Assembly (NCBI RefSeq): GCF_000012505.1
Contig: NC_007513.1
Span: 186,001-250,000 of the forward strand
Direction of reading: 5' to 3'
DNA: 64,000 nt
Source of the DNA: Synechococcus sp. CC9902
GTDB lineage: Bacteria > Cyanobacteriota > Cyanobacteriia > PCC-6307 > Cyanobiaceae
Each line of letters opens with the position of its first letter. The first letter of the stretch is position 1. Shown one piece after another: positions 27,817 through 32,199 of this stretch. The translations under genes and the position numbers were made by a program. A model generated the notes under the pieces. That model was given only the letters and a program-made list of their open reading frames with translations. It did not search any database and was not told the DNA's origin.

Positions 27817-28667
27817 CGACTCGCCCGAAGCTGTTGTTGATCCGTGGGCTCGGACATAGCGGCACCACGATTCTGGATCTCGCGCTTGGAGCTCATCCCT
27901 CGATCATGGGCCTGGGGGAAGCGGTCCGGATCCTTGAACGTCCTCGACCGGATGAAGCCCAGCGAGGTCCTGCCCAGCTCAGGGGAGATCTGCGGTACGA
28001 ACGTTCCTGCACCTGCGGAAAGTTGGCAGCGGACTGTCCTGTTTGGGGGCCTCTTTTGGATTGGCTGCCAACCCACGACGACTTGCCACTCAAGGCGAAG
28101 TTGAAGCACCTCCTGGCGACGTTGCCGAGCGCGGATCAACCCCGTTGGGTGGTCGATTCCTTCCAAGACGACCGCCTTTTGCCGTTCTGGACAGAGAACG
28201 ATCTTGAGATTCGAGTGATTCATCTCACCCGTGATGTCCGCAGTTGGGTCCATTCCCGATCGCGCAAAGAGCGTCAGCACGGGCGTTGGCTTCCAGAGCT
28301 GCGCCCACTCCTCCGCTGGTGGAGGCTGAGTGCCCGCGATTCCTATCAGTTCAAGGCCCTTGGCAACAGAGTCTTGCGTCTGGGGTATGAGGAGCTGGCC
28401 TTACAGCCTGATGTTGCTCTGCGTCGCGTCTGCGCTTGGCTTGAGCTGCCTTTTGTGGAGACGATGCTCCAGCCCGGAGATCACTCCACGAGCCATGTGC
28501 TGTCCGGTAATCGCATGCGTTTTGATCCGAACCAGCGTCAACGCATTCAGTACGACGGCAGCTGGATGCAGGCTGCTTCGGGATTAACTCACCTGGCGCT
28601 CTGCATTCCGGCTTTATCTCGTCTGAACCGGAGCTTGGTTTATTCCGGTTTGCCACCCAGGGATTGA
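27813..28667 (+). CDS. Sulfotransferase family protein
   Basis: 284 aa. LLLIRGLGHSGTTILDLALG is the 5'-phosphosulfate-binding loop that grips PAPS, and RVIHLTRDVRSWVHSRSRKE is the 3'-phosphate-binding helix with the expected Arg and Ser. The protein also has a CTCGKLAADCPVWGPLLDWL segment with three cysteines, common in this bacterial subgroup. ATG 27813 overlaps the preceding glycosyltransferase by 4 bp, so the sulfate is probably placed on the glycan made by these enzymes. Its last 28 bp overlap the convergent membrane-protein gene. Confidence 0.86.
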   Translation: MTTRPKLLLIRGLGHSGTTILDLALGAHPSIMGLGEAVRILERPRPDEAQRGPAQLRGDLRYERSCTCGKLAADCPVWGPLLDWLPTHDDLPLKAKLKHLLATLPSADQPRWVVDSFQDDRLLPFWTENDLEIRVIHLTRDVRSWVHSRSRKERQHGRWLPELRPLLRWWRLSARDSYQFKALGNRVLRLGYEELALQPDVALRRVCAWLELPFVETMLQPGDHSTSHVLSGNRMRFDPNQRQRIQYDGSWMQAASGLTHLALCIPALSRLNRSLVYSGLPPRD

Positions 28668-30499
28668 CGTCCCCTGTGGCGGTAAATCTTGCCATTATCG
28701 ATATTCGGATTTAAGTCGAAAATTAAGTCGTAGTCCGAAAGATCAATATCAAATTTCTTTAGTCGGCGTCCCGTGTCGATATTAAGGAAAAAGTCTCCTT
28801 TTTTTGGATTGTAAGAGTTTCCCTTGCCAATGCCGTCTTGGATTCTGATTTCCTTTGTGTCTTCATTGAGGTAAATCAGTCGGTCGTATTTAAGCCGTCT
28901 GAGATGGTTATTGTTCCGAAACCAGCCTTTGGTGAAAATCAGATTGATTTCTTCTCCATGAAGACGTGCTGTTTCGGTTACGTCGTCTACGGCGGCCAGG
29001 CTGGCTGCCCATGAATCGTGGGCTGAAGTGATGTCTTTAACCCGATGGACGAATGTATTAGGAAGGCCATCTTCGATTGCCACTAGCGCGATACTGCACC
29101 CGATGCTGAGGCCGGCGGCAACTCGTTGCGTTGTTGCTTTCCGGGGGAGTCGAGGTGCCAGGGTTTCTGTGCAAAACACCATCAAATTCACGATCGCGAT
29201 GAACTGCACGGGTAGGGCCATGTAGTTGCTCGCTTTAAATCCAACGAGGTAAAACAGAACTCCGATGTAGCTCCATGCCGCCAGGTTTATGGCATCGAGC
29301 AAGCTGAATGACCACCGTCTTCGGGCGATCTGTAATGCGCGCAGACAGGAATACCCCAGTAAGAACAGCAAGCGTGGGTCGAGTTGGAGGGCGGCGAATC
29401 TCAGCTCTGAGTCATACCGCTGTTCACCCACGTAATGGCTTGGAAGAACGCTGAGATAGACGAAGCTAAGAAGGAAAAAGATGCTGACCCCAATTAAATG
29501 GATTTCAAGTTGAAATCTGTTGCGACAAAAGATCCCTATCTCGCGGAGTGAATGAAGCCCTGTTCTGCGCTGCTCTTGGATTAGCCCATGGCCCATCACC
29601 CCGAGAGCTGGAATCAAGAACAACAGAATCGCCGTGTCTTTTGTGAAAGCGCCGATCAAGCTGGCGATAATGGCGGCATAGTGATTCTGAACCCGTTGCG
29701 TTTGCTGATAGCGCAAGTAGTTGTAGGTAAAAATTGCAAACAGCAGGACAAGAATCCGTTCGCTGTAAATGAACTGGAAGTAGTTATAAGCGCTGGCAGG
29801 TGTAAATAAGAATAGAATTCCTGTAACTGCTAGTAGTGATGGTATCTGTTTGCGACGAGTTAGCAGTTCAATGATCTTTGTAAGCAGCACTACAGTGGCT
29901 GCTAATTCGATGCAGTTAACGAGTGCCCAGATTTTGACGTAAGGGGTAAACCAGCTGAGGATATGAATATCTTGATGCGCAAGCGGAAAGAATCGGTAGT
30001 CATTCCTCGACATTGTCTCGATTAGGAATGTCCAGCGCAGGGAGAAGTTGTCGAGCAGAAAGCCGCCGACAAGATCGTCGTACCAGCTAATAATTTCTTT
30101 GTAAAACCAGCTGCTCTTGTGGACCACATAGCTGGAGTAAAGGGTGAAGAGTCCTGTGCTAAATGGATATTTTTGGATGGCATTCCAAAGTCGTTGAGTG
30201 ATTGTCTTTGAATGGCTTGTGGGATGACTGATTCGATCGGTATGTTCAGCTTCGACATGGTTGGCTTTGCGGATTCTCCAGCTCATCCAGCCCACGGCGA
30301 TGATTAGAATGCTGATGAAGATTGCATGGGAAATGATGTTATAAGTGAGTGCTAGATCACGGCCAGCATCTGTCGTTGGGATCGGAAAAGATGCTCGGTT
30401 CTCGTCGATCCAGATCCAGGCGATTGCAGCGAGGATGGTTAACACTCCACTGAGTGTTAGGGCTAAACCCATCCGCCGCACGACTATTTGAGAGGACAT
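28640..30499 (-). CDS. Large multi-spanning membrane protein, paralogue of the 11.3 kb gene; possible GT-C glycosyltransferase
   Basis: About 619 aa with around ten membrane helices and a soluble C-terminal domain. Not recognised. It aligns along its whole length with the 11341-13182 product: the shared loop DYRFFPLAHQDIHILSWF, the N-terminal pattern NR..P.P....GR..A, and a C-terminal Y-x-PKxGD with a DG just before it. The start ATG (30499) shares one base with the stop of the upstream sulfotransferase (TAATG), so the pair is made together; a longer frame is possible but would overlap that gene by 31 bp. With kdsA further upstream, the unit points to a sulfated surface polymer. The GT-C assignment is inference from topology and the acidic first loop. 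Confidence 0.78.
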   Translation of the reverse strand: MSSQIVVRRMGLALTLSGVLTILAAIAWIWIDENRASFPIPTTDAGRDLALTYNIISHAIFISILIIAVGWMSWRIRKANHVEAEHTDRISHPTSHSKTITQRLWNAIQKYPFSTGLFTLYSSYVVHKSSWFYKEIISWYDDLVGGFLLDNFSLRWTFLIETMSRNDYRFFPLAHQDIHILSWFTPYVKIWALVNCIELAATVVLLTKIIELLTRRKQIPSLLAVTGILFLFTPASAYNYFQFIYSERILVLLFAIFTYNYLRYQQTQRVQNHYAAIIASLIGAFTKDTAILLFLIPALGVMGHGLIQEQRRTGLHSLREIGIFCRNRFQLEIHLIGVSIFFLLSFVYLSVLPSHYVGEQRYDSELRFAALQLDPRLLFLLGYSCLRALQIARRRWSFSLLDAINLAAWSYIGVLFYLVGFKASNYMALPVQFIAIVNLMVFCTETLAPRLPRKATTQRVAAGLSIGCSIALVAIEDGLPNTFVHRVKDITSAHDSWAASLAAVDDVTETARLHGEEINLIFTKGWFRNNNHLRRLKYDRLIYLNEDTKEIRIQDGIGKGNSYNPKKGDFFLNIDTGRRLKKFDIDLSDYDLIFDLNPNIDNGKIYRHRGRQSLGGKPE

Positions 30500-31326: not shown

Positions 31327-31350
31327 GGCGTTTTGTGGGAGGGATTCTCA

Positions 31351-32199
31351 TCACTTGATCTGGAGCATTGGCATGCCCTTCACGAGATCGTCGATGGCTT
31401 TGACCTGGGTGAGGAATGGTTCGAGCAGGTTTAGGGGCAGGGCGCTGGGACCGTCGCAACGAGCTTGTGCTGGGTTGGGGTGCGCTTCTAAGAACAGGCC
31501 TGCCAGTCCGATGGCCATCCCAGAGCGGGCCAGATCGACAACTTGGGATCGACGACCACCCGATGCGGCACATCCGGGATCGCGACATTGCAGAGCGTGA
31601 GTCACGTCGAAAATCAGTGGGATGTCTTGGCAGGTTTGCTTCATGACCCCAAAACCGAGCATGTCGACCACGAGGTTGTCGTAGCCAAAATTGCTGCCGC
31701 GTTCGCATAACAACAACTGCTCATTGCCGCACTCTTTGAACTTTTCAACGATGTTGGCCATCTGTTCCGGGCTTAGGAACTGGGGTTTCTTGATGTTGAT
31801 GACAGCCCCGGTGTTGGCCATCGCGGTGACCAAATCCGTTTGGCGGGCCAGGAACGCTGGCAGTTGAATGATGTCGGCAACCGCCGCTGCAGCCACAGCC
31901 CCCTCGGGGGTATGGACATCGGTGATCACTGGGATGCCGTGGGTGTTTTTGACGGCTTCAAGGATGCTTAGCCCTTGTTCGAGGCCAGGGCCACGAAAAG
32001 AATGGATGGAGGATCGGTTGGCTTTGTCGTAGGAGGCTTTAAACACCAAGGGAATGCCAAGGCGTTCACAGACGGTTTTGTAATGGCTTGCGCAGTGCAG
32101 TGCGAAGTCCAAGTCTTCCAGAACATTCACGCCGCCCAGCAGGACAAAGGGTCGGTCGTTCGCGAACGTGATGTTTCCGAGTTGAACCTGGCGCGCCAC
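31351..32199 (-). CDS. kdsA: 3-deoxy-D-manno-octulosonate-8-phosphate synthase
   Basis: 282 aa. It condenses arabinose-5-phosphate and phosphoenolpyruvate to KDO-8-phosphate. Diagnostic blocks are [29 protein letters not shown] (substrate lysines), [39 protein letters not shown] and [18 protein letters not shown]. An asparagine (GGVN) where metal-type forms often have cysteine suggests the metal-independent class, but this needs alignment. It leads the unit kdsA - sulfotransferase - membrane protein; kdsB and kdsC/kdsD are within 6 kb. Confidence 0.96.

Follow-up and report, generated by a model that had tools for sequence, protein, structure and literature searches.

In Synechococcus sp. CC9902, the genes for a 3-deoxy-d-manno-oct-2-ulosonic acid (KDO)-8-phosphate synthase (kdsA), a sulfotransferase (ST1) and a 619-aa membrane protein (GTC) are part of what we read as a KDO-centred surface-glycan locus of marine Synechococcus, whose product would be a sulfated KDO glycan decorated by GTC, a reading to which we give a probability of roughly 0.55. 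The three genes lie in a window of 64,000 nucleotides, bases 186001-250000 of the 2,234,828-bp single-contig genome, and positions are given below as those of the window unless marked in kb. The locus itself is real and conserved and is built of known kinds of parts, while a sulfated KDO glycan is what we infer as its product. Marine Synechococcus are abundant phototrophs of the ocean, and their surface glycans have a bearing on how phages adsorb to them, how they are grazed and how they aggregate. Many of them have a conserved kds set despite lipopolysaccharide (LPS) that, in the strains analysed, is reported to lack KDO, no WaaA found and often no KpsC/KpsS found, which makes the locus a place to look for a KDO acceptor, and it connects KDO to sulfation and to an uncharacterised family with the GT-C glycosyltransferase fold.

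Arrangement of the three genes

On the minus strand kdsA (31351-32199; 282 aa, GTG start), ST1 (30499-31326; 275 aa, TTG start) and GTC (28640-30499) run head to tail, with a gap of 24 bp between kdsA and ST1 and one base in common between the stop codon of ST1 and the ATG of GTC (a TAATG overlap; ...CACTTAATGTCC... on the minus strand). This arrangement had been described in the initial annotation and is confirmed by the open reading frames (ORFs); the GTC ORF spans 28640-30529 and 629 aa, the length of 619 aa being counted from the ATG at 30499-30501. A promoter/terminator scan, in which the number of sites was about equal to that in shuffled sequence, found no terminator-like sites on the minus strand within 28200-32800 and two overlapping minus-strand promoter-like sites upstream of kdsA, at 32388-32417. 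Co-transcription of the three genes is plausible. The identity of kdsA is secure on profile scores, as it exceeds the curated cut-offs of three KDO-8-phosphate synthase equivalog models (NF009109, 503 against 457 bits; NF003543, 394 against 242; TIGR01362, 357 against 314).

Linkage across relatives

The family sample comprised 151 genomes, with matches to GTC in eight, to ST1 in 21 (13 of them strong) and to kdsA in 66, of which 22 have the close type, defined as above 300 bits. The eight other ST1 genomes, with no match better than E 9.9e-27, were excluded as carrying other sulfotransferases. All 13 strong-ST1 genomes have ST1 in the kds locus, and close kdsA occurs in 12 of them (hypergeometric 4e-11, kinship not corrected for); in the thirteenth, G139, which is 78% complete, ST1 has kdsD, kdsC and a partial kdsB next to it. 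Strong ST1 is likewise present in all eight GTC genomes, the GTC match being a fragment in G139 and an icd-linked copy only in G089.

Adjacency of ST1 was read in 17 genomes, namely the 13 strong-ST1 loci together with those of UW140, UW105, CO36386bin_29 and WH7803; greedy ORF maps miss some overlapping kds genes and were corrected by tblastn reading. In 16 of the 17 a kds gene is the immediate neighbour of ST1: kdsC in 12, kdsA in three (this genome, G004 and G061) and kdsB in one (G025). In the seventeenth, G147, ST1 abuts GTC and GTC abuts kdsA. In nine of the 17, kdsB faces ST1 closely.

Thirteen genomes show kdsA and GTC in one locus (this genome, G000, with G004, G147, G071, G075, G138, UW140, UW105, AG-673-A03, CO36386bin_29, WH7803, AG-679-A04 and the short contig L046), and in ten of them GTC comes immediately after kdsA. 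The order is reversed in G004, ST1 intervenes in this genome, and in G071 the two genes are ~5 kb apart. The kdsA and GTC ORFs overlap by 4 bp in L048, L050 and L051. Within the 13, GTC of G075 is broken, and in this region G138 and UW105 hardly differ. The count leaves out L042, where ST1-GTC is visible and the contig ends before kdsA; L044, L055 and L056, where no kds gene can be seen; G089, which has just the icd copy, and G139 (fragment); L047 and L054, from the same metagenome-assembled genome as G138; and L058, L053 and L057, which are the L045, L049 and L048 contigs, respectively.

Among the loci read, the exact order kdsA-ST1-GTC is seen only in this genome. The initial annotation had proposed one three-gene unit; its linkage survives comparison (ST1 with kds genes, kdsA with GTC) and its gene order does not, and the unit is larger than three genes, since kdsB, kdsC, kdsD, a GT8-like gene and a second sulfotransferase gene (ST2) are common to one locus with them. 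In most relatives the three genes are not scattered, several kds loci lacking ST1, GTC or both. The whole genome of G131 has no match to kdsA, kdsB or GTC, and the 20 kb of it that were read have none to kdsD, the GT8-like gene or ST2; a kdsC-like gene (67%) stays there, with a distant ST1-like gene (26%).

The 619-aa membrane protein GTC

None of 22 GTC members matches any Pfam family at E 0.01, the ArnT/PMT families included, and solved structures searched by sequence gave no convincing relative. The AlphaFold model of GTC (mean predicted local distance difference test score, pLDDT, 79; predicted template-modelling score 0.83) was more informative. Rows 1-47 of its VIA fold comparison are all of the GT-C fold, at Z-scores from 16.1 to 9.6, and the next row is unrelated, at Z 5.2. 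Forty-four of the 47 are glycosyltransferases or their complexes and three are the U subunit of glycosylphosphatidylinositol transamidase, which we take to have a GT-C fold as well; the matches include OST/STT3, PMT, ArnT (Z 14.7 and 14.3), EmbB and ALG9/12. Because the rows are uniform in class and Z then drops sharply from 9.6 to 5.2, we take GTC to have this fold, and on the predicted model it is a GT-C glycosyltransferase of an uncharacterised family. This bears out the probable GT-C enzyme of the initial annotation, no well-known unrelated family having been matched. The WsfD hexose transferase model (NF051875) was tried for GTC and rejected, with 17.8 bits against a cut-off of 80 and four of the 22 members matching at E 0.01.

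A conserved acidic residue in the first long extracytoplasmic loop is a feature of GT-C enzymes. In GTC, D177 is invariant in the 22 members and lies between the long helices 112-128 and 188-214, where mean pLDDT is mostly 43-60. GTC is 29-42% identical to its relatives, apart from the copy (93%) on the near-identical L042 contig, and kdsA in GTC-bearing genomes is mostly 79-90% identical (75% for the L046 fragment); such divergence of GTC is as expected of variable surface decoration. The G+C content is 0.479 for GTC against 0.568 for kdsA. A tree built from 25 GTC proteins places the four icd-linked copies with the unplaced contig copy L055 and divides the kds-linked copies among several lineages; no origin is claimed for GTC, because its deepest splits are poorly supported and two long branches come together.

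Four contigs with Synechococcus-like GTC genes (L042, L044, L046 and L055) are labelled Gammaproteobacteria, Rhizobiaceae or Planctomycetaceae. On L042, L044 and L046 the neighbours of GTC are also Synechococcus-like, and all four contigs are probably mis-binned Synechococcus. Only L052, from Thiohalocapsa, shows a GTC neighbourhood without genes of the Synechococcus locus.

The sulfotransferases

Taken alone, ST1 lies below the Pfam cut-off (PF00685, 18 against 22 bits), and of 14 aligned members 11 match PF13469 and seven match PF00685 at E <=0.01. A sequence search for solved-structure relatives of ST1 gave none at the threshold used. The predicted model of ST1 has a sulfotransferase fold, with matches to heparan sulfate NDST1 at Z 14.1-15.1 (best Z 15.1, root-mean-square deviation 3.7, 227 aligned), to 3-O-sulfotransferases (3-OSTs) at Z 13.3-14.3 and to the bacterial sulfotransferase 3rnl at Z 13.9; other sulfotransferases follow at Z 10.6 and lower, and adenylate kinases reach 10.2. 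Foldseek places 3rnl first, at E 1.9e-5. As the model has a mean pLDDT of 69 and was built from six sequences, the NST/3-OST subtype is a lead, not a result.

Conserved in the 14 members are a GxGxQKAG(T/S)SW loop, K37-E38 and R130-D131-P132...S138, with K15, G17, S19, E38, R130 and S138 invariant. We take these to be the loop that binds 3'-phosphoadenosine 5'-phosphosulfate (PAPS), the Glu that follows it and the Arg/Ser pair for the 3'-phosphate. ST1 is thus, on fold and motifs, a probable PAPS-dependent carbohydrate sulfotransferase of the cytosol. The identities given to kdsA and to the sulfotransferase in the initial annotation hold, the one by its equivalog scores and the other by the fold of ST1 and the Pfam matches of its members. 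For PAPS supply, an adenosine 5'-phosphosulfate kinase is found in 19 of 20 genomes. ST2 (27777-28667, plus strand, start codon not fixed) is convergent with GTC, scores 47.6 bits with PF13469 against a cut-off of 27 and is present in most kds loci read.

The other kds genes and a GT8-like gene

The CMP-KDO synthetase gene kdsB (35964-36743, plus strand) scores 183 bits with TIGR00466 against 155, and it is matched in 19 of 20 genomes, the exception being G131. On the minus strand, kdsC (36822-37373), of the KDO-8-phosphate phosphatase family, exceeds the cut-off of the subfamily model TIGR01670 (137 against 107 bits) and does not reach that of the stricter equivalog NF007019 (139 against 208). 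Similarly, kdsD (37370-38518, minus strand, start codon not fixed), an arabinose-5-phosphate isomerase gene of the KpsF/GutQ family, exceeds the cut-off of the TIGR00393 subfamily (257 against 204 bits), with the KdsD and GutQ equivalog cut-offs not reached.

The GT8-like glycosyltransferase gene (35254-35964, plus strand; PF01501, 26.6 bits against 24.3) adjoins kdsB in every tblastn-read locus where both are visible and is 60-96% identical in 13 relatives; L029 has an extra copy, 54% identical, near kdsA. A sequence search for its solved-structure relatives gave none at the threshold used. The gene is highly conserved and is a candidate for the missing KDO-linked transferase.

A possible donor route for GTC

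A GTC paralogue (11341-13182, minus strand; 613 aa, 32% identity to GTC, E 9.9e-93) adjoins icd in the same window and is followed by a GtrB/ArnC-like GT2 gene (14733-15701, plus strand; PF00535, 93 bits), probably for a polyprenyl-phosphate-sugar synthase, and by a GtrA-YdjC fusion (15783-17021, minus strand), which joins a probable lipid-sugar flippase domain (PF04138, 40.5 bits against 26.1) to a domain of a sugar-deacetylase family (PF04794, 124 bits against 29.7). Residues 137-277 of the fusion match chitooligosaccharide deacetylase 7vi8 at E 1.2e-10. In L026, L053 and L057 icd, GTC, GtrB and GtrA-YdjC are together as in this genome, and next to GTC in Thiohalocapsa L052 are GtrA, GtrB and YdjC as separate genes, the GtrB being 37-38% identical to the GtrB-like GT2 here. 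Given the paralogue near GtrB and GtrA-YdjC and the Thiohalocapsa neighbourhood, GTC is probably a periplasmic enzyme, which would use a polyprenyl-phosphate sugar.

That sugar is possibly an amino sugar, and if it is an N-acetylhexosamine it would be deacetylated, since the YdjC part matches a chitooligosaccharide deacetylase. NaxD-type amino-sugar pathways have a deacetylated sugar, as is proposed here for the GTC donor. NaxD and YdjC are named in passing in PMC9612325. Matches spanning both domains of GtrA-YdjC occur in 36 of the 151 family genomes (one of them, G120, with stops) and in seven of the eight GTC genomes; being present in far more genomes than GTC, the fusion probably serves other acceptors too.

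Where KDO could go

WaaA (PF04413) was considered as a KDO sink and rejected, as it was not found over the cut-off in any of the 17 genomes tested, with one weak sub-threshold match in G004, by a search that rings in three of 14 controls. PF05159, the family of KpsC/KpsS, is matched in six of the 17, all of genus g1; in the sample of that genus all six kdsA genomes have PF05159, and G131, which lacks kdsA, has none. Three of 13 further genomes also match, including one weak match and one genome with distant-type kdsA. PF05159 was not found in the single-contig kds genomes G075, G071, G141 and G101 or in G152 (WH7803), G153 (UW105) and G154 (UW140); several other PF05159-negative genomes are incomplete. 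In the genome studied here all PF05159 matches lie at 475-482 kb, outside the 186-250 kb window and ~260 kb away.

The locus that holds them (G000:C1, ~469.6-486.7 kb; L064:7636 to L065:4651) also has two sulfotransferases, a CBS-NeuB-SAF-AP_endonuclease-like fusion of 762 aa, three DUF6716 proteins and a Wza-like export protein, and on this gene content it probably makes a sulfated, nonulosonate-containing capsule.

The gene content thus gives KDO at least one orthodox sink in this genome and none recognised in several relatives, WaaA being found in none of the 17 genomes and KpsC/KpsS not found in many kds genomes. LPS of Synechococcus WH8102 and CC9311 has been reported to lack KDO (PMC4515613), and that paper also cites KDO in Microcystis, Anacystis and others; cyanobacterial LPS in general is described as without KDO in PMC3087551.

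Interpretation and alternatives

In the proposed pathway, CMP-KDO from the kds genes would enter a cytosolically built glycan, which ST1, and perhaps ST2, would sulfate from PAPS in the cytosol. After export, GTC would add a side-branch sugar from the periplasmic face using a polyprenyl-phosphate donor, for which the likeliest route would be the GtrB-like synthase and GtrA-YdjC of the same window, giving a polyprenyl-phosphate hexosamine. A bolder version, which we consider distinctly improbable, is that the sulfated KDO glycan has no lipid A or KpsC/KpsS anchor and is made via an unrecognised family of KDO transferases, that GtrA-YdjC feeds free hexosamine to a new GT-C family and that heparan-type sulfotransferases modify the product; if true, it would place a deacetylate-and-sulfate logic outside animals.

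A number of observations weigh against a GTC-decorated sulfated KDO glycan. With regard to the fold of GTC, Foldseek alone gave weak matches (best E 1.8e-3, none below 0.001), and mostly helical models often reach middling Z, with best values of up to 14 without kinship. The linkage has its exceptions, as ST1 occurs without GTC in the kds loci of G061, G112, G029, G025 and G120, both are missing from those of G101, G053 and G141, and GTC is found away from visible kds genes in the icd copies, the G139 fragment and L056, where it stands among GT4 genes; a second GTC copy in UW105 is ~8-10 kb from the kds genes, and in the order of Thiohalocapsa GTC was found in one of 210 genomes, with at most six candidates scored per genome. 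Internal stops are flagged in GTC of G075 (L028) and in ST1 of G071 (L029) and G120 (L035), the latter two both among the 13 strong-ST1 genomes, which may mean that the genes are dispensable in these genomes or were lost recently. As to the donor, GtrB/GtrA-YdjC do not adjoin the kds-linked GTC, and GTC is missing from 29 of the 36 genomes with a two-domain GtrA-YdjC match, which leaves the paralogue and one distant genome as the basis of the donor link; in G138, 74% complete, GTC is matched three times and GtrA-YdjC not at all. KpsC/KpsS are encoded elsewhere in six kds genomes, so the KDO may go to that capsule instead, and co-location is not proof of one product.

It is rather unlikely, in our judgement, that KDO goes only to the KpsC/KpsS capsule anchor ~260 kb off and that ST1 and GTC act on a different glycan, sharing the cluster and nothing else. 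Genus g1, where PF05159 is present in every kdsA genome of the sample and missing from kdsA-less G131, would fit such a division, as would the sulfotransferases, NeuB-domain fusion and DUF6716 proteins that the KpsC/KpsS locus has of its own, but many kds genomes are without PF05159 (among them G075, G071, G141, G101, WH7803, UW105 and UW140), and in five of these seven (G075, G071, WH7803, UW105 and UW140) ST1 and GTC are still with the kds genes, which argues that their link to them is independent of KpsC/KpsS. ArnT, FlmK and LgmB provide a model for another alternative, the decoration of lipid A or LPS core by GTC with an amino or other sugar, the product having neither KDO nor sulfate. We hold this to be unlikely: kds-locus GTC comes directly after kdsA in ten of 13 genomes and no lipid A enzyme turned up among the part of the window and neighbouring proteins that was scanned, whereas ArnT is among the fold matches of GTC (Z 14.7 and 14.3), the set of GtrA, GtrB, YdjC and GT-C resembles amino-sugar lipid A pathways, and glucosamine has been reported in marine Synechococcus LPS (PMC4515613).

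The genes could also be adjacent by chance, in a glycan island that reshuffles fast, and have no common pathway, as the varying gene order, the patchy occurrence of GTC (8/151) and ST1 (21/151) and the kds loci without ST1 or GTC might suggest. Yet ST1, although its place varies, remains next to kds genes in 16 of 17 genomes, and all eight GTC genomes have strong ST1, albeit with a GTC fragment in G139; chance is already disfavoured, and we regard it as very unlikely.

Relation to known systems

The preferred reading, a sulfated KDO glycan decorated by GTC, has partial counterparts. In the three-component periplasmic glycosylation systems (GtrA, GtrB and a Gtr GT-C enzyme; GT136 pentofuranose systems), whose logic is described in PMC11127046, the GT-C fold is shared, as are the GtrB-like synthase and the GtrA domain near the paralogue, but here GtrA is fused to YdjC, the kds-linked GTC is not beside GtrA/GtrB and GTC has no Pfam family. 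ArnT/FlmK/LgmB with a NaxD-type deacetylase are alike in the polyprenyl-phosphate-sugar synthase family, the YdjC-family protein and the ArnT-like fold, whereas the locus described here is a cyanobacterial KDO locus and GTC does not match ArnT in sequence. Heparan sulfate N- and 3-O-sulfotransferases are among the best fold matches of ST1, but ST1 is ~13-17% identical to them and the bacterial 3rnl matches as well.

The glycan clusters of the marine genus Cobetia are alike in content, with KDO, sulfate, sulfotransferases and glycosyltransferases; the accessible text of PMC11766843 reports surface polymers with KDO and sulfate, not stating there whether these are in one polymer, and a sulfated capsule cluster with kpsSC. 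Compared with what is given there, KpsC/KpsS here lie outside the locus and are not found in many locus-bearing relatives, and a GT-C gene stands beside kdsA. The initial annotation knew of no named pathway with such a set, which, judging from that text, now looks less unprecedented. A literature search of titles and abstract openings found none describing the locus, which is no proof of absence.

Flanking genes

Upstream of ST2 on the plus strand (20192-27816) Pfam matches identify an ABC transporter, a 754-aa glycosyltransferase and three GT4 glycosyltransferases, families that also adjoin kds loci in relatives. The ABC transporter gene (20192-22039) has a G+C content of 0.439 and a third-position G+C content of 0.378, against 0.553 for the window.

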